The translations under genes and the position numbers were made by a program. 64,000 nucleotides of DNA from Thermophilibacter immobilis. GTDB lineage: Bacteria > Actinomycetota > Coriobacteriia > Coriobacteriales > Atopobiaceae. Positions 19,141-63,613 of this stretch are shown piece after piece. The notes beneath the pieces were generated by a model. That model was not told where the DNA came from. It saw only the letters and a program-made list of their open reading frames with translations, and did not search any database. The stretch covers positions 310,001 through 374,000 of the forward strand of contig NZ_CP063767.1 in the NCBI RefSeq assembly GCF_015277515.1, in the 5' to 3' direction. Each line of letters opens with the position of its first letter. Position 1 is the first letter of the stretch.

Positions 19141-19331
19141 GCCTCACCTCCGGGTTCTATGGTTTCGCGAGCGTTACGGTGTGAGAATGCGTGGCTCCCT
19201 CGTGCCCGCCGTCGCTATTCTGTGCCCTGTGCACGTAACTTTCTCGCATTGAGTTGCAAGGGGGAGGGGAATGGGTCCCCTCCGGTTGCGTGATACGGAA
19301 GGGGTCTCGCACCAGACGGAAGGGAACCACC

Positions 19332-22387: not shown

Positions 22388-22480
22388 GGGTGCTACTTCG
22401 CGGACCATACCCGAACGCGTACTTTGGTCTCTCTGGGAGCTCAAAACATGCGATAGGGTATGGTCCGCGAAGTAGCACCC
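22388..22480. repeat. Palindromic repeat type A, copy 1
   Basis: Two perfectly complementary 25-base arms, 22388-22412 and 22456-22480, are separated by 43 bases. The left arm contains GCTACTTCGCGGACCATACC. The same core followed by CGAACGC recurs at 41.46 kb. The element sits between the ABC ATPase and nadE. A transcript would form a long hairpin that could end or protect mRNA; no T run follows. Confidence 0.8.
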
Positions 22481-24978: not shown

Positions 24979-26625
<1,647 letters not shown>

Positions 26626-26658
26626 GGTACTAAGGCCAAGGCTCACCTAGCCGGGTAT

Positions 26659-26724
26659 GCCCCCGGCCTTCCCACGAGAAGCGCGCTTTGCGCAGCTTCT
26701 TCTCGGAAGGCCGGGGGCGTTTTT
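26659..26724 (+). terminator. Rho-independent terminator after groEL
   Basis: GCCCCCGGCCTTCC at 26659-26672 pairs with GGAAGGCCGGGGGC at 26705-26718; within the loop ACGAGAAG pairs with CTTCTCG. A GTTTTTC run follows directly. It ends the groES-groEL transcript. Confidence 0.9.
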
Positions 26725-26751
26725 CTGCGTGATGTGCCTGGACCCTTGGCC

Positions 26752-26768
26752 CATCGAGTGCGCGAAAG
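26752..26768 (+). repeat. Half-site of palindromic repeat type C
   Basis: ATCGAGTGCGCGAAAG here matches one arm of the 115-base palindrome at 62756-62870. No complementary arm is seen nearby, so this is a solo or decayed copy. About 25 bases further on (26791) GCTCACGAAT begins the type-B material, so both types sit together at both loci. Confidence 0.6.
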
Positions 26769-26790
26769 CCCGTTGTGGCTCTGAGAAGGC

Positions 26791-26890
26791 GCTCACGAAT
26801 TCGGCCCTGGGGCACGGCGGCAAGACGATTGCGCAGGAATCGGGGGCTGGGGCACGTCACAAGGGGCGGTACGTGCCCCAGCCCCCGATT
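26791..26890. repeat. Palindromic repeat type B, copy 1
   Basis: Perfect 20-base arms AATCGGGGGCTGGGGCACGT (26838-26857) and its complement (26871-26890) enclose 13 bases. Just before them, GCTCACGAATTCGGCCCTGG (from 26791) repeats the same theme in degenerate form. The arms match the element at 62.62-62.73 kb, which shares GGCACGTG and CGTGCCCCAGCCCCCG. It lies between the groEL terminator and the converging nfnB terminator, and has no coding content. Confidence 0.8.
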
Positions 26891-26921
26891 CATGAGCGGT
26901 TGGCCGTGATGCGCTTCTCGT

Positions 26922-26961
26922 TTACAAAAAGAGCCCGGAACCGCAAGGCGGCTCCGGGCTC
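26922..26961 (-). terminator. Rho-independent terminator after nfnB
   Basis: Read on the minus strand, GAGCCCGGAGCCGCC-TTGC-GGTTCCGGGCTC (with one mismatch in the stem) is followed by TTTTTG. It lies 26 bases past the nfnB stop at 26987 and converges on the groEL transcript. Confidence 0.9.
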
Positions 26962-26986
26962 GGTACGTACTCGATCGAACGAAGAC

Positions 26987-28387
26987 CTATGCGCAGAGAG
27001 CCCTGGTGATGCTCGCTGCGGCAGTCTTGCCGGCGCCCATGGCCAGGATGACCGTGGCCGCACCGGTGACGATGTCACCGCCGGCCCAGATGCGCGGGTC
27101 GGACGTGCGGCCGTCCTCGTCGGCGAGGATGTAGCCCCACTTGTTGAGCTTGATGTCGCCAATCATCTTGGCGAACGGGTTGGCGTTGGTGCCGATGGCG
27201 GAGATGGCCACGTCGCAGGGAATCTCCTCGATGGCACCCTCGATGGGCACCGGGCGCCTGCGACCGGACGCATCGGGCGCGCCGAGCTCCATCTTTTGGA
27301 CGCGCACGGCGCAGACGCAGCCGTCCTCGCCCTTGACGAACTCGAGCGGGGAGACGAGCGGCATGACCTCGACGCCCTCGGCCTTGGCGTGGTGCAGCTC
27401 GGCGCGACGGGCGGGCATCTCCTCCTCGGAGCGGCGATACGCGATGACGGCGCGCTCGGCGCCCAGGCGCTTGGCGGTGCGCACGGCGTCCATGGCCACG
27501 TTGCCGCCGCCAAAGACCACGACGTTCGTGCCGTGCTTGGTGGGCGTGTCGTAGGTGGGGAACTTGTTGGCCTTCATCAGGTTCACGCGGGTGAGGTACT
27601 CGTTCGCGAAGAAGACGTTGGGCAGGTTCTCTCCCGGCACGTTCAAGAACTTGGGCAGACCGGCGCCCGTGGCCACGTAGATGGCGTCGTAGCCGGCCTC
27701 GAAGAGCTCCTCGGCATCCGTGATGCGACCCACGACGCTGTTGAACTCGAACTTGACGCCCAGCTCCTCGAGGCCGTCGATCTCGCGCTTGACGACCGCC
27801 TTGGGAAGACGGAACTCGGGGATGCCGTAGACGAGCACGCCGCCGCCGGTGAAGAAGGCCTCGAAGACCGTCACGTCAAAGCCGTTGCGCGCGAGCTCGC
27901 CTGCGCAGGCGATGCCGGAGGGGCCGGAGCCCACGACGGCGACCTTCTTGCCGTTCTTGGGGGCCATCTGGGGCTTGGAGGCCAGGTCGGGCTGGTCGCC
28001 CAGGAAGCGCTCCAGCTGGCCGATGGCCACGGGGTCGCCCTTCTTGCCGCGGATGCACTTGCCCTCGCACTGGTTCTCCTGGGGGCAGACGCGACCGCAG
28101 ATGGCCGGCAGCATCGACTCCTCGCGGATGACGTCGAGCCCGCCGCCGAAGTCCTCGTCGCGAATCTTCTCGATGAACTTGGGGATGTTGATGTTGACGG
28201 GGCAGCCGTCGACGCAGAGGGGCTTCTTGCAGTCCAGGCAGCGATCCGCCTCGGCGAGCGCCATCTCCTTGGTGAATCCCTTGTCGACCGAGCGGAAGTC
28301 GCAGGCGCGCTCGGCGGCCGGCTCCTCGTTGTCTGCGGTGCGCGGGGACTTCATGTTGGGAACAAAGCGACCGTTTATCTGTGGCAT
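26987..28387 (-). CDS. nfnB: Flavin/iron-sulfur subunit of NADH-dependent ferredoxin:NADP oxidoreductase (GltA/GltD-like)
   Basis: 466 residues. The N-terminal iron-sulfur part has CLDCKKPLCVDGCPV and CGRVCPQENQCEGKCIRG, the two-cluster motif of GltD-type proteins. Then come the FAD site VAVVGSGPSGIACAGELA, VYGIPEFRLPK, the NADP site VVVFGGGNVAMDAVRTA with YRRSEEEMPARR, and the terminal FAD motif IWAGGDIVTGAATVI. Alone it would be called glutamate synthase small subunit, but no gltB large subunit is near. It overlaps by 13 bases a PyrK-like flavoprotein gene, which is the NfnA-NfnB arrangement. NfnAB bifurcates electrons from NADPH to NAD and ferredoxin, or runs in reverse. The older name for such pairs is sulfide dehydrogenase SudAB. 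Confidence 0.85.
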   Translation of the reverse strand: MPQINGRFVPNMKSPRTADNEEPAAERACDFRSVDKGFTKEMALAEADRCLDCKKPLCVDGCPVNINIPKFIEKIRDEDFGGGLDVIREESMLPAICGRVCPQENQCEGKCIRGKKGDPVAIGQLERFLGDQPDLASKPQMAPKNGKKVAVVGSGPSGIACAGELARNGFDVTVFEAFFTGGGVLVYGIPEFRLPKAVVKREIDGLEELGVKFEFNSVVGRITDAEELFEAGYDAIYVATGAGLPKFLNVPGENLPNVFFANEYLTRVNLMKANKFPTYDTPTKHGTNVVVFGGGNVAMDAVRTAKRLGAERAVIAYRRSEEEMPARRAELHHAKAEGVEVMPLVSPLEFVKGEDGCVCAVRVQKMELGAPDASGRRRPVPIEGAIEEIPCDVAISAIGTNANPFAKMIGDIKLNKWGYILADEDGRTSDPRIWAGGDIVTGAATVILAMGAGKTAAASITRALCA

Positions 28388-41454: not shown

Positions 41455-41525
41455 GCTACTTTGCCGACCATACCCGAACGCCCGATTCAGGGTCAGAATC
41501 GACCCCGATTAGGCGTTCGGGTATG
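41455..41525. repeat. Palindromic repeat type A, copy 2
   Basis: GCTACTTTGCCGACCATACC followed by CGAACGC repeats the left arm of the 22.39 kb element with two differences. Here the inverted arms are CATACCCGAACGCC (41469-41482) and its perfect complement at 41512-41525, so the hairpin is shifted inward relative to copy 1. It lies between the malic enzyme pseudogene and a small gene. Confidence 0.75.
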
Positions 41526-41585
41526 ATTGCTCGAGTGGCTACCCCACCGTCTCCGTGTATCGTGAGGAAGCTTGAGGGAGCGGCC

Positions 41586-49997: not shown

Positions 49998-50011
49998 GAT
50001 GGTCTCCGTTT

Positions 50012-50137
50012 CTTCCATCCGGACTGTCACCGTTGGTCCTGGAATCGCACCAGGTCAGCCGCTGTTTTAGCGGGTCGCGGACTTCGAGCGCATGGGCTCG
50101 TTACCGCCAGTGGGGAGTTGCACCCCGCCCTGAAACC
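50012..50137 (-). ncRNA. FMN riboswitch (RFN element)
   Basis: On the minus strand the conserved 5' block reads TCAGGGCGGGGTGCAACTCC then CCACTGGCGGTAA, and the 3' block reads CAGGTGCGATTCC(AGG) then ACCAACGGTGACAGTCCGGA(TGG). These are the paired cores of the FMN aptamer. It ends about 15 bases before the ribU start, so FMN binding probably blocks initiation, closing the P1 helix next to the ribosome site. It senses FMN and shuts the riboflavin importer operon. Confidence 0.95.
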
Positions 50138-50175
50138 GACAGGGCGAGTGTAGCACGTATCGCCCGCGGCCGCGC

Positions 50176-53955: not shown

Positions 53956-55281
53956 TCACGCGTCGACGACCTCCGGCACGGCGAGAAGCGCGTTGAGGTA
54001 GAAGATGCCCTTCTCCGCGCCCACGTGGAGCGTCCCGCCGTAGCGCCGCACGATGCCGCGCATCGAGCGCATGCCAAAGCCGTGGTTCGACTGGTCGCCC
54101 TTGCTTGTGACGGGGAGGCCGCTCTGGAAGAGGGGCTGGTGGGCGTACCAGTTCTCCAGGTTCACGGCCACCATGCCCCCGCGTCGGCGCACCGTGAGGG
54201 TGATGGTGCGGCGCTCGGGGTCGTCCACGGCGCGCACGGCCTCGATCGAGTTGTCGAGCGCGTTGCCAAAGAGCGAGTAGATGTCCGAGGGACCCATGAA
54301 GTCGAGTGCGCCTCCGTCGGCGATGACGGACAAGACGATGCCCTCGCTCGAGCAGGCCAGGCTCTTCTCGGTGAGTATCGTGTCCAGGGCCTCGTTGCCC
54401 GTCTCCACGACGGAGTCGTAGATATTGACCTCGCGTGCGATGTCGGCGAGTGCCTTGCGGTTCACGGTTTGCTCCCCGTCGGAGAGGTGGCGTATCTGGT
54501 GGCGGATGTCGTGACACTTGATGTTGATGGCCTCTATGTTCGCACGCGAGAGGCGATACTGCCGGTCGCGCTCGGCCAGGAGGCGCTCAGTCTCGGCCTT
54601 CTCCTCGCTCATGCGCTTGGCATAGAGGATCTCGTATTCGGCGAACAGCACGAACACGCAGATGGCGGCATGCAGAAGCCTCAGCAGAACCAGGTAGGAG
54701 AAGACGGTCCCGAACATGGCCACGCCCTTGATGACCACGTCGAGGCCGATGATCATGCAGATCGTGATGGCGAACATGAAGAGCATGAGCTTGTTCTCGA
54801 CGACGATGAGCCCGTTCTTGTCGATGCGGCGCACGAACCCAAAGTAGGTGACCGTGTAGGCGAGCGCGGGCACGCCCAAGGAGACGATGAGCCCCAGGGG
54901 CTCGGCGAGCACGTCGCCGGGGCGGCCGTTGATGAGGTACTGGGCGAGGATGGTGACGCCGCTCGAGAAGTTCTGGATCGTGTAGCCGGCCGTCGCGCAA
55001 AAGAGCGCCTGCCATGGGCTCGCGTCGTAGGCGAACACGATGAGGCCCACGAAGACGGCGAGAAGCACGCTGAACACCAGAAAGGCCTGCATAGTGTCGA
55101 GCCCGGTCACCAGGCCCGTCGCCAAGGGAACGACGGCCAGGCAGAGCAGAAAGGCCATCACCAGGGCAAGGCGCAGCGTCGTGGTGGGACGCCGGGGGAG
55201 CCTGCGACACAGAAGATAGATGGGGATGACGAGCTGGGCCAGGATCTCGAGCGTCCAGTAGCTTGAGAGAAACTCCCTCAT
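53956..55281 (-). CDS. Membrane sensor histidine kinase, GHKL/AgrC-like
   Basis: 441 residues. About six hydrophobic segments fill residues 1-200 (EILAQLVIPIYLLCRRLPRR, TLRLALVMAFLLCLAVVPLA, AFLVFSVLLAVFVGLIVFAY and others). A coiled linker with EEKAETERLLAERDRQYRLS follows, then the phospho-His region NIKCHDIRHQIRHLSDG. The ATPase has the N-box YSLFGNALDNSIEAV and the G-box SNHGFGMRSMRGIV. This SPOR/AgrC-type (HPK10) kinase usually senses peptides. It overlaps its response regulator by 4 bases. A remnant of a paralogue lies at 62.9 kb. Confidence 0.92.
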   Translation of the reverse strand: MREFLSSYWTLEILAQLVIPIYLLCRRLPRRPTTTLRLALVMAFLLCLAVVPLATGLVTGLDTMQAFLVFSVLLAVFVGLIVFAYDASPWQALFCATAGYTIQNFSSGVTILAQYLINGRPGDVLAEPLGLIVSLGVPALAYTVTYFGFVRRIDKNGLIVVENKLMLFMFAITICMIIGLDVVIKGVAMFGTVFSYLVLLRLLHAAICVFVLFAEYEILYAKRMSEEKAETERLLAERDRQYRLSRANIEAINIKCHDIRHQIRHLSDGEQTVNRKALADIAREVNIYDSVVETGNEALDTILTEKSLACSSEGIVLSVIADGGALDFMGPSDIYSLFGNALDNSIEAVRAVDDPERRTITLTVRRRGGMVAVNLENWYAHQPLFQSGLPVTSKGDQSNHGFGMRSMRGIVRRYGGTLHVGAEKGIFYLNALLAVPEVVDA

Positions 55282-56174: not shown

Positions 56175-56320
56175 GGTTAGCGCCTCACTACGGGTCAAAA
56201 AAGCGCTTCGTTGGGTCAGGGCGCCAGTGGAGGCGTCTCTGAAACGTATCTTAGGGGTGCCAGTAGGCGGGGTGGGGACAAATCTGCCTCCCCGTTGCCA
56301 TTTTCTCAGGGAGGAGAATG

Positions 56321-58768
56321 ATGGAAAAGCATAATCTCACCAGGCGTTCGTTTGTTAAGGGAGGCGCTGCGGTCACCGGTGCCGCTGCCATGCTCACGAC
56401 ACTCGCGGGCTGCGGCCAGGGGGCGAGCGACCCCACGGCGGCACCTGCGGCCGACACGTACCCCCTTGACCCAGATGACTCCAAGGTCGAGGCGAAGTGG
56501 TCCTCCGAGACGGTTCGAGACGGCTGGACCAAGGTGACCAACCCCGAGGGCTCCCCCGAGCTGGGCGTCATGGACGAGGCCAAGATCATTCAGGTGGACG
56601 GCCTTGCCTTCAAGGACCTTAACGGCAACGGCAAGCTCGACCTCTACGAGGACTGGCGCCAGAGCGACGAGGACCGCGCCAAGAGCCTCGCCGACACGAT
56701 GAGCGCCGAGGAGATCCTCCCGCTCATGTTCCACGACGGCATGATGAGCACGAGCGCCCCGCTCGACGAGGACTCCGAGGCCAAGCTCGGCGAGGGCCTT
56801 CGTGCGGGCGTCTCCCGCGCAAACGCCAACGCGGACACCTACGCGAGCGCCATCGCCTGGATCAACGCGGTCCAGGAGTGGTGCGAGGCAAACGACAAGT
56901 ACGGCATCCCGTACATGAACTCCACCGATCCCTACCAGCTCTACGACATCCCGGACAACCACTGCCTGGTCTCCTCCTTCGACCCGGAGCTGTGGAAGAA
57001 GTCGGGGCACTACACCGGTCGCGCGTGGCGCGTCACGGGCGCCCGCGTGAACCTCGGCCCGCAGATCGACATCGGCTCCAACATCGTCTACACGCGCCTG
57101 GGCGGCTCGATCAGCGAGGATCCCGCGGCCAACCGCGACCTCTGCAAGGCGTTCGGCGGCGGCATGCAGTCCACCTGGGGTGACGACGACTGCACCGACG
57201 ACAAGGGTTGGGGCGAGGACTCCGTCGCCATCATGCTCAAGCACTACGTGGGTGCCGGCGCCGTCGAGGGCGGCCGCAACGACCACAACGACGCGGGCAA
57301 GTACGACGTCTTCCCCGGCGACAACTTCAACGCCCACCTTATCCCGTTCCTCGACGGTGGCATGCACCTTGAGTCCTCGACGGGTCAGATGGCGGCGGTC
57401 ATGCCCAACTACGGCATCGCCTACACCGAGGACGAGTCCCTCGGCCCGATCTGGGGAGGCGCCTACAACAGGCGCAACCTCATGATCCTGCGTAACGCCG
57501 GCTGGGACGGCATGATCACCACCGACTGGCAGATCCTGCGCGAGACCGACTTCGGCGACCGCGCCCACGGCGTGAAGGACATGACCGAGCCCGAGCGCTT
57601 CGAGAAGCTCCTCGAGGCCACCGTCGACCAGGTCGGCGGCGACTGGGCGGTCGACGTGGCCACCGAGGGGTACAAGCTCTACGAGCAGGAGTATGGCGAG
57701 GACGAGGCGCTCGCCCGCGTGCGCGACTCCGCGCGCCGCATCTTCACAGTGATGAACCGCGTGGAGCTCTTCGACAACCCCTACTCCGACCGCGAGCGCG
57801 CCAAGGAGATCCTGAACGACCAGGCCGCCCTCGACTTTGGCCAGGAGGCGTCCGACCGCTCCATCGTCATGCTCAAGAACAAGGGCAACGTCATCTCCGA
57901 GGCGGGCATCTCCGGCAAGCCGAAGTGCTACATCCCGCAGAAGTCCTCCGGCGGCGGGTTCTTCTCGTCCACTCCTGCCACCGTCGGCCCCGCTATCAGC
58001 CAGGACCTCGCCGACGAGCTCTTTGACGTGGTGACCGACACCGTTGACGAGTCCGGCGAGAGCCCGGTCATCACCGACCTCCCCGTGGCGGACATGGCGG
58101 GCTGCGAGTACGTCTTCTACGTCATCTCCTCGCCCGACACCGGGGCGGGCGAGCCGCAGGGCGGCGGCTTTGGCCCCGACGCGGCGCCCGTCGACCCCGA
58201 CGCCCCCAAGTACCTGCCCATCTCGCTGCAGTACCGTCCCTACACCGCCGACACCGCGCGCGACCCCTCGCTTGCCGGCGACATCCTCGAGGACGGCACC
58301 AAGGAGAACCGCTCCTACCGTGGCCAGTCCGTGACCGCGAGCAACGAGGCCGACCTCGACCGCCTGATCGAGATCCGCGAGGCCCTGCCCGACGCCAAGA
58401 TCATCCTGGCGGTCGAGGCCACCAACAACGCTCAGTGCTTCCACGAGATCGAGCCCTACGCCGACGTCATCCTCTGGTCCTGGGCGAGCTCGGGCCGCAA
58501 CTTCGAGCAGGCGTACGGCCGCATCCTCAAGGGCGAGGTCGAGCCTACCGGCCTGCTGCCCTGCCAGATGCCCAAGGACATGGAGACCGTCGAGGCCTCC
58601 TACGAGGACGTCCCGCGTGACGTCGAGTGCTACACCGACTCCGAGGGCAACACCTACGACTTCTGCTTCGGCCTCAACTGGGCCGGCGTGATCGACGACG
58701 AGCGCGTGTCGACCTACAAGGCCAATCCGCTGACGAGTCCCGAGACCGAGGTCAAGGCGGACGCGTAG
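56321..58768 (+). CDS. Lipid-anchored glycoside hydrolase family 3 enzyme
   Basis: 815 residues; the second of two adjacent ATGs is preferred because GGGAGG then lies six bases upstream. N-terminal Tat-like LTRRSFVKGGAAVTG, hydrophobic run and lipobox LTTLAGC point to export and lipidation. An EF-hand-like loop FKDLNGNGKLDLYEDW follows. The TIM-barrel domain comes first (about 110-440) with the predicted nucleophile Asp in AGWDGMITTDWQILRETDFG. The C-terminal alpha/beta sandwich begins near SDRSIVMLKNKGNVI and ends with DVPRDVECYTDSEGNTYDFC. GH3 enzymes release glucose, xylose, GlcNAc or related sugars; the specificity is not readable. It is the first gene rightward of the divergent two-component system. 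Confidence 0.9.
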   Translation: MEKHNLTRRSFVKGGAAVTGAAAMLTTLAGCGQGASDPTAAPAADTYPLDPDDSKVEAKWSSETVRDGWTKVTNPEGSPELGVMDEAKIIQVDGLAFKDLNGNGKLDLYEDWRQSDEDRAKSLADTMSAEEILPLMFHDGMMSTSAPLDEDSEAKLGEGLRAGVSRANANADTYASAIAWINAVQEWCEANDKYGIPYMNSTDPYQLYDIPDNHCLVSSFDPELWKKSGHYTGRAWRVTGARVNLGPQIDIGSNIVYTRLGGSISEDPAANRDLCKAFGGGMQSTWGDDDCTDDKGWGEDSVAIMLKHYVGAGAVEGGRNDHNDAGKYDVFPGDNFNAHLIPFLDGGMHLESSTGQMAAVMPNYGIAYTEDESLGPIWGGAYNRRNLMILRNAGWDGMITTDWQILRETDFGDRAHGVKDMTEPERFEKLLEATVDQVGGDWAVDVATEGYKLYEQEYGEDEALARVRDSARRIFTVMNRVELFDNPYSDRERAKEILNDQAALDFGQEASDRSIVMLKNKGNVISEAGISGKPKCYIPQKSSGGGFFSSTPATVGPAISQDLADELFDVVTDTVDESGESPVITDLPVADMAGCEYVFYVISSPDTGAGEPQGGGFGPDAAPVDPDAPKYLPISLQYRPYTADTARDPSLAGDILEDGTKENRSYRGQSVTASNEADLDRLIEIREALPDAKIILAVEATNNAQCFHEIEPYADVILWSWASSGRNFEQAYGRILKGEVEPTGLLPCQMPKDMETVEASYEDVPRDVECYTDSEGNTYDFCFGLNWAGVIDDERVSTYKANPLTSPETEVKADA

Positions 58769-62573: not shown

Positions 62574-62620
62574 GGGACGGCTGATCACTGGCCCAACCGC
62601 GACCGCTCACGGCCGCGGTT

Positions 62621-62728
62621 GCTCACGAATCCGGGGCTGTGGCACGTGGGGGCTTCTCCTCACGTGCCCCAGCCCCCGTTTCATGCGCATCCGGCGTCCG
62701 TAGCTGCCACGGCCCCGGATTCGTGAGC
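62621..62728. repeat. Palindromic repeat type B, copy 2
   Basis: Outer 17-base arms GCTCACGAATCCGGGGC (62621-62637) and its exact complement (62712-62728) enclose GGCACGTGGGGGC...CACGTGCCCCAGCCCC, which forms an inner hairpin and repeats the arms of the 26.84-kb copy. It lies in the gap after the second GH3 gene with no coding content. Confidence 0.8.
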
Positions 62729-62755
62729 GCACCTCGGGATGGAGTCGCCGGCTTC

Positions 62756-62870
62756 ATCGAGTGCGCGAAAGTCCTCGTTATGTGATAGGGGCCGAGCCCC
62801 GCCAACTGGGAAAACACTACCGAGAACCGCGCTCTTCTCGTCCACGTAGCCCGACTTTCGCGCACTCGAT
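62756..62870. repeat. Palindromic repeat type C
   Basis: Perfect 18-base terminal arms ATCGAGTGCGCGAAAGTC (62756-62773) and the complement (62853-62870) bound 79 bases. A half-site of the same sequence is at 26752-26768. With type B it fills the 310-base gap between the GH3 gene and the kinase remnant. Confidence 0.8.
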
Positions 62871-62883
62871 TTTGGGCCCTGCG

Positions 62884-63033
62884 TCACAGGGCTTCCGGGC
62901 TGTGGAGCACCACGTTGAGGTAGGAGAGGTCGCCGTCGACGTCTGCGTGAAGCGTGCCCCCATAGCGCCGGGCGATCGCGCTCATGGAGCGAACGCCAAA
63001 GCCGTGGTTTGCGGTGTCCGGCTTAGTCGTCAT
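62884..63033 (-). pseudogene. Histidine-kinase C-terminal remnant
   Basis: The frame reads MTTKPDTANHGFGVRSMSAI then ARRYGGTLHADVDGDLSYLN and ends at 62884. It aligns with the end of the complete kinase at 53.96 kb (SNHGFGMRSM...RRYGGTLHVGAEKGIFYLN). Only the G-box and last strand remain. It faces away from the following GH3 remnant, the same divergent layout as the intact locus, with the kinase front, the regulator and the GH3 front deleted. Confidence 0.85.
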
Positions 63034-63041
63034 CGGAAGTA

Positions 63042-63613
63042 TTGCCTACTCCGATGTCCATCGTCATGCTCAAGGACAAGGGCGGCGTGATTAAGAATAT
63101 GGGGAGCATGCCGCCGACGGCCCCCGCGTGCGCGAGGAGCCTATCTCCGGCAACGTGGTCGACGGCGTCAAAGAGAACCGCAGCTATCTTGGGCAGAAGG
63201 CAACCGTGGTCAACTCCGACGAGCTCACGCTCATCCAGGGCAGCGTGGCTCTCATGCAAGACAAGCCCGTCGTGGTCTGCCTCAACGCCACCAAGCCCAT
63301 GGTCTTCTCCGAGTTCGAGTCCGAGGTCTCAGAAATCCTGATGGGCTTTGGGACCAAGGGCACCGAATTCCTGAACATTCCTGCCGGTCATGCTGAGCCC
63401 TCTGGCCTTTTGCCCCTGCAGATGCCGGCCAGCATGGACGCTGTCGAGGCCCAGCTCGAGGACGTCCCCCGCGACATGGACTGTCACGGGGGCTCCGAGG
63501 GCAACGAGTACGACTTTGCCTATGGCCTCAACTGGTCCGGGACAATTGACGATGAGCGAACCAAGACCTATAAGGCCGATCCGCTCACCGCGTCAGAGTA
63601 CCTCAAGCTGTAG
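63042..63613 (+). pseudogene. GH3 paralogue, C-terminal remnant
   Basis: It begins in the middle of the sandwich domain (SIVMLKDKGGVI, compare SIVMLKNKGNVI in the first GH3). It then shifts frame near 63128 and continues GVKENRSYLGQKATVVNSDE, EPSGLLPLQMPASMDAVEAQ, LEDVPRDMDC, NEYDFAYGLNWSGTIDDERT to a TAG at 63611-63613. This matches the end of the 56.3-kb GH3 closely. The whole catalytic barrel is missing. Confidence 0.88.

Follow-up and report, generated by a model that had tools for sequence, protein, structure and literature searches.

The window, by which we mean the whole stretch of 64,000 nucleotides that was analysed, corresponds to positions 310001-374000 of the genome of Thermophilibacter immobilis, a single contig of 2.16 Mb. 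Two gaps between genes predicted by a simple gene caller hold short palindromic elements of two types, B and C. The first gap (26626-26986) separates two convergent genes, which we take to be groEL (24982-26625, plus strand) and a glutamate-synthase-small-subunit-like (gltD-like) gene (26987-28387, minus strand). Here a complete type B element on the minus strand (26791-26897, profile E 2.7e-22), with three arms at 26791-26814, 26831-26854 and 26874-26897, abuts a half-copy of type C (26753-26790, minus strand, orientation judged by eye) that consists of the arm ATCGAGTGCGCGAAAG at 26753-26768 and about 20 bp more, the other arm and the core being absent. A terminator-like hairpin stands on either side of the pair. 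In the second gap (62574-63127), a type B element on the plus strand (62621-62728, profile E 4.8e-25, arms at 62621-62644, 62665-62688 and 62705-62728) is followed after 27 bp by a complete type C element of 115 bp on the same strand (62756-62870, profile E 3.6e-20), whose arms form a perfect 18-bp inverted pair (62756-62773 and 62853-62870) around the core CCAACTGGGAAAAC (62802-62815, plus strand). Type B arms reading CGTGCCCCAGCCCCCG lie at 26841-26856, 26872-26887 and 62663-62678. A third type, A, has two window copies of 63 bp with no strand assigned, at 22403-22465, where pairing reaches outward to 22388-22480, and at 41466-41528. One scan also met an element of the window in three Olsenella metagenome assemblies.

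The first-pass annotation had singled out the B and C repeats at 26.75 and 62.6 kb, and they are real, arms of both types being found at both places, as is the gene-free character it gave to the two loci. Its description of the arms as perfect or near-perfect holds for the C pair at 62.6 kb and fails at 26.75 kb, where the single C arm has no partner. Next to the B and C elements, 62894-63613 is pieced together from fragments. One (62894-63009) matches a portion of the gene at 53956-55281 (72%), and two more, 63057-63091 (89%) and 63395-63588 (71%), resemble a glucosidase-like gene at 56318-58768. By this similarity the fragments are likely pseudogene debris. Elsewhere in the window, Rfam recognizes a Corio-PBP RNA (19229-19302, plus strand) and an FMN riboswitch (50003-50141, minus strand).

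Placement of types B and C across the genome

In the genome we count 14 type C loci and at least 27 type B loci. To the elements found by profile, at least 12, the first figure adds the 336-kb half-copy and a copy at 845 kb that is rearranged; it leaves out a weak further match (744468-744595, 27.8 bits); the C profile matches mostly on both strands because the elements are palindromes. The second was obtained at E up to 1.6e-4 with a profile of the whole B element. Allowing two mismatches, the C arm matches 20 times in the genome (12 and 8 on the two strands), as compared with 0 for the reversed pattern. The B 16-mer alone gives 20 matches (10 and 10) against 18 (10 and 8) for its reversed control and is therefore uninformative by itself.

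All 41 loci of the two types lie in gaps between predicted genes, which bears out the shared preference for gene ends that had been suggested. The gaps around B are convergent in 12 cases, tandem in 15 and divergent in none of the 27, and three B copies run 9-29 bp into the 3' end of a gene; those around C are convergent in five, tandem in seven and divergent in two of the 14. The other suggestion, that B and C together form one composite element, draws on the three gaps that they have in common (82, 336 and 372 kb of the contig). The opposite order reported for the two window loci is a matter of strand: read in the orientation of B, C comes after B at all three, as a composite would have it. 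The chromosome-wide linkage check proposed at the time gives a divided answer. If all non-divergent gaps are weighted equally, 0.62 shared gaps are expected by chance and three or more have P=0.02; with weighting by length the expectation is 2.0 and P=0.31, placement being simulated in gaps modelled on the window and the length-weighted figure leaning on one gap of 1,997 bp. Against a composite, most of the counted loci stand alone (24 of 27 for B, 11 of 14 for C), the spacing and completeness of C vary, a preference for long gaps would bring the sharing within chance, and one B copy, the weakest, lies beside an element of a different family (435 kb). We find a composite element hardly credible, and conclude that a common liking for roomy gene ends is enough to account for the sharing, with a modest excess possible: B and C are two independent palindrome families at gene ends.

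Type B-like units also occur in BIME-like tandem arrays with a period of about 110-120 bp, in the congener G025 (C20:518-864, C15:35415-35701 and C21:28812-29172). The word CGAGAAG, considered as an over-represented word or uptake sequence, was dropped, since it shows no excess between genes (14 occurrences, 13 expected).

Near-constant length and free interiors

The outer arms of type C in this genome read CGAGTGCGCGAAAGTC, except that four copies have CGAGTGCGTAGAAGTC at both ends (one arm with a one-base change), and enclose a core near CCAACTGGGnAAACG; of 28 aligned elements, 22 agree with the core word CAACTGGGAAAACG at no fewer than 11 of its 14 bases. Six copies span 115 bp, and the others 107, 114, 114, 123, 123 and 138 bp, with one of 86 bp in outward orientation. 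The six 115-bp copies, all equal in length, agree best in the arms (mean pairwise identity 92-95%) and the core (84%); the right part (49%) and the left spacer (29%) are far less alike. The longest copy (804819-804956 of the contig) owes its length to about 23 bp duplicated in tandem inside it (115 + 23 = 138). In the shortest, which takes up 86 bp (845844-845929), the arms face outward, as though it had been rearranged. Type A is stricter: its 12 pairs in this genome span 63 bp every one, with two further unpaired arms, and their interiors are 49% identical.

The arms of C covary. In 26 C-type elements from 13 genomes, chosen by us from a collection made with a model in which paired arms score well, which favours covariation, the main arm helix is 98.2% paired and 10 of its 15 pairs have changed on both sides; the whole-structure covariation score is 0.439, against 0.193 in shuffles, and is reached by none of 500 of them, the count of pair types being reached by 6 of 500. 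For type A, arm covariation is not above shuffles (117 of 500). C interiors folded alone have z-scores between -6 and +0.5; only some congener copies are clearly negative, and in the genome studied here no value goes beyond -1.2. A loop core ACCTGC is present in 9 of 23 loci, of which four are C-type relatives, where 1.1 would be expected; as the top 6-mer in shuffles averages 7.7 (maximum 11), a core common to several families is suggestive only. By eye, no target-site duplication is seen at the elements, whose flanks often extend the palindrome, and a GTAG tag is found in the outer arms of type A, in the inner arms of a genome from another family of the order (G047) and in a minority C arm, being absent from the majority C arm.

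Covarying arms and a position downstream of genes, with no divergent gap among 27 B loci, would suit hairpins that act in RNA, as bidirectional terminators or as stabilisers of mRNA 3' ends. Nevertheless, a terminator-like hairpin already stands on each side of the elements in the groEL-gltD gap, and the nuclease-like genes described below, which such elements flank, would be left unexplained. Terminators, besides, need no 16-base arms common across a genome. Rfam 15 has no match at the window elements at the gathering score, and 11 loci searched at E up to 0.05 gave none, for which reason we also dropped the reading of the elements as a known RNA family. A role in RNA thus appears very improbable to us.

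Palindromes on both sides of a family of nuclease-like genes

Inverted C pairs, 1.3-1.5 kb apart, bracket a gene at 745 kb of this genome and its homologues in the congeners G025 and G010. Up to E 1, Pfam recognizes nothing in the C-flanked proteins, and it is from remoter relatives that the nuclease label comes: of 41 such family members, 19 match PF18741 and 13 match PF04480 at E up to 0.1 (best 2.6e-6 and 4.8e-5), the matches of four remote members being far under Pfam's cut-off. In the PDB, the best match to a profile of the 41 members is 3r3p (E 0.012), a mobile-intron protein. The most conserved residues, SPxE, GG, N, D, E and H and, less strictly, D, R and Q, presumably fit a Vsr-type PD-(D/E)XK nuclease. 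With weak to moderate confidence, we read the family as putative Vsr/DUF559-like nucleases (PD-(D/E)XK, EDxHD-type). Nine members compared with NCBIfam and PADLOC gave nothing useful, one scan for viral relatives confirmed none, and a single-sequence AlphaFold model (mean pLDDT 31) has no usable fold.

The family is present in all 31 genomes of the genus, ours included, with 8-24 matches each (some genes counted twice), and class-wide in 108 of 197 genomes at E up to 1e-6, 106 of them within three families of the order. The genome of T. immobilis has eight family loci; the six longer proteins are 21-46% identical pairwise, and thus no gene has a second copy among these. The Y1 transposase domain PF01797 has no match in this genome at E up to 0.001, the control search giving matches in 5 of 14 genomes; REPs driven by a RAYT were rejected for this genome on that ground. 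None of the family members scanned has a Pfam match to a transposase.

A gene was scored as positive when an exact word of at least 11 bases formed inverted-repeat arms in each of its two flanks of 500 bp. This was so for 18 of 57 family genes of the genus and for none of 175 control genes taken from the same loci and the window; a looser test, asking for a palindrome on one side and its word on the other, gave 33 of 57 against 2 of 175. Forty of the 57 had been picked from the match list blind to elements and yield 9 in the strict test and 20 in the looser one; the other 17 were partly chosen for nearby elements. The initial set had 61 genes, four of which had flanks too short to use. Palindromes in both flanks are rarer outside the genus (4 of 43, against none of 30 controls). 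The exact-word test finds no both-flank match for 39 of the 57 genes in the genus and 39 of the 43 outside it, and it misses pairs such as the one of 108 bp on both sides of the 1,978-kb gene of this genome. The arms vary between genes and are the same on the two elements of one gene. The two spans are often equal (97/97, 57/57, 48/48, 108/108, 127/127, 145/145 and 134/134), with other pairs unequal (96/95, 126/125, 118/120, 128/117 and 114/152).

In this genome, type A copies at 1,826,373 and 1,827,568 bracket the family gene at 1,826 kb, as C copies do the one at 745 kb. A palindrome of 129 bp, of a further family, lies on one side of the 567-kb family gene; in the stretches examined it recurs once, at 435 kb (435429-435557), 45 bp from the weakest of the 27 B loci. 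For type B, we found no family gene with exact B arms in this genome. The G028 family gene, however, lies between two palindromes, the better of which spans 69-71 bp, whose arms have an inner GTGGCACG part in common with B, and the B profile matches on both sides of it; in our own genome, the 1,565-kb gene has multi-armed elements with GCGCTCAC in common with B. By this resemblance, and in congeners, type B is likely tied to a nuclease-like gene. The 1,565-kb arms themselves match 27 times within 358 kb, against 10 for the reversed word, and 12 of the 27 fall in the two flanking elements, which does not support a dispersed population for them. For the dispersed copies sampled, arms are identical to those beside the gene in G010 (three copies) and, with one copy per genome, in G013, G019, G027 and G028; they differ by at least 2 of 15 bases in G025, in G009 and in six of eight type C copies of our genome, the register of this comparison being wrong in some G022 and G025 rows.

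In G025 and G022, two inverted C elements flank another gene (L174:2520-3959 on G025:C10, where it is called as two pieces, and L075:356-2032 on G022:C296), presumably aldo-keto-reductase-like and lying between hisA and hisF. Genes seen between matching repeats are nuclease-like or, once, an aldo-keto reductase, which suggests a passenger gene. Flanking of this second gene, together with inverted flanking copies and terminal inverted repeats in general, gives the arrangement the look of an autonomous transposon, made of gene and two palindromes, from which the dispersed palindromes would derive as MITEs. Yet the six longer family genes of our genome are only 21-46% identical to one another. 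In five congeners, the gene adjoins what we take to be argC-like and DJ-1-like genes in spite of differing arms, and in three more, where a contig ends, it has one of the two as its neighbour; to this is added the lack of a Pfam transposase match in the members scanned. We regard a transposon as unlikely.

If flanking arms mark a dispersed population, those beside the gene of G047 should recur in its genome, and they do, with 59 matches as against one for the reversed pattern. They form 29 inverted pairs, 24 of 134 bp, one of 135 and four of 145, plus one unpaired arm, and two of the pairs flank the gene. Three G047-family genes have different outer arms and, by eye, a common inner sub-arm, CGAGTAG.. 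/ ..CTACTCG. From 134 to 145 bp the span grows by 11 bp, close to one turn of the helix. This step, the near-constant spans, the placement at gene ends and the conserved arms with free interiors could also be expected of binding sites for a DNA-binding or architectural factor, involved in regulation, supercoiling or chromosome structure, that do not move. Fixed sites do not sit well with the groEL-gltD gap, though, which holds a C remnant and B in our genome, a C-type element with arms of other sequence in G013 (by eye) and, over 223 bp, no element visible by eye in G015; and the profile matches of the protein indicate a nuclease. An architectural role therefore has a low probability in our eyes. 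The same gap has other sequence in G004, G030, G024 and G023, and G003, where groEL is not adjacent, has a C-type element downstream of gltD. Elements seem to come and go, or to change, at one site; across congeners we saw presence and absence, with no clean empty-site junctions, and no transposition or excision event was observed in the genomes compared.

A nuclease proposed to serve palindromes in trans, and known systems

For types A and C, the genome studied here presents near-constant spans, placement at gene ends, copies flanking a gene, gene-specific arms and dispersed copies. The explanation that we favour, and think fairly probable, is that A, B and C are separate palindrome populations, each served in trans by a single-copy nuclease-like gene that carries copies of the element on both sides, the nuclease spreading or maintaining the elements. 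Short palindromes of nearly constant length at gene ends would each be, or have been, attended by one Vsr/DUF559-like gene; the paired outer arms would serve as a gene-specific address, and some of the families may have a short loop core (ACCTGCG / AACTGGGnAAACG) in common. The nuclease would recognize its cognate hairpin or cruciform and cut it, thereby spreading or maintaining the element; binding, cleavage and copying of DNA by the putative nuclease are what we infer from this layout. B and C would co-occur because both survive only at gene ends. To our knowledge, only HuH enzymes of the RAYT type have been described as owning dispersed palindrome populations in bacteria. We found no description of a link between such nucleases and palindromes in the open literature; the accessible part of PMC8040213 mentions palindromic candidate RNAs in general only.

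MITEs resemble these elements in being short and intergenic and in having terminal inverted repeats. Here, in contrast, neither a parent transposase (in the members scanned) nor a target-site duplication (by eye) was found, and the interiors diverge widely with little change in length. The weak match to 3r3p (E 0.012), which we take to belong to the EDxHD or Vsr-like homing endonucleases, would possibly place the protein in the same nuclease superfamily. Homing endonucleases spread selfishly through DNA cutting. Unlike them, the gene described here is free-standing between palindromes and, as far as seen, not intronic. TIRtrons, as portrayed in the accessible part of PMC3733652, also have a gene between long terminal inverted repeats that form dispersed families as well; their enzymes, the TIRYTs, are of the same class as RAYTs, tyrosine transposases of the IS200/IS605 group, whereas our proteins have no such match.

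The closest likeness is with the REPIN-RAYT system, or REPtron, of Pseudomonas, E. coli and Stenotrophomonas (PMC3116915, PMC8266576, PMC3733652, each as far as its accessible part goes). REPINs are there inverted REP doublets with invariant 16-mers, in classes that lie beside distinct single-copy RAYTs (PMC3116915). Extragenic inverted pairs of about 16 bases at near-constant distance, several classes per genome, each beside its own single-copy gene, and tandem arrays in some genomes are found in both. Fixed distance is seen here in all 12 type A pairs (63 bp) and in 24 of the 29 pairs of G047 (134 bp), C being less strict (86-138 bp). Repeats flank the cognate gene in 18 of 57 cases against none of 175, most genes being negative by the exact-word test, and the eight family loci of our genome give one single-copy gene per class, with no gene of its own identified for B. 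Our arms differ in being long inverted repeats, in which, by eye, the GTAG tag is not general. The enzymes differ too: that of REPIN-RAYT is a HuH/Y1 tyrosine transposase, TnpAREP being thought domesticated (PMC8266576), and the protein described here resembles Vsr/DUF559 nucleases, in a genome with no PF01797. The layout would accordingly work like REPIN-RAYT without being a member of it, its enzyme appearing unrelated.

We incline, with some reserve, to see in Coriobacteriales a second, independently evolved counterpart of REPIN-RAYT: a large family of Vsr/EDxHD-type nucleases, in several divergent single copies per genome, that would keep palindromes of near-constant length, with fast-changing paired arms as the address and a conserved loop core as the common working site, nuclease and arms coevolving as the gene stays at its locus. 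This would also hint at what a large, unnamed family of Coriobacteriales proteins does. If it is true, the palindrome-owning way of life arose more than once, with an unrelated enzyme, and what keeps such populations alive becomes testable by the comparison of two independent cases.
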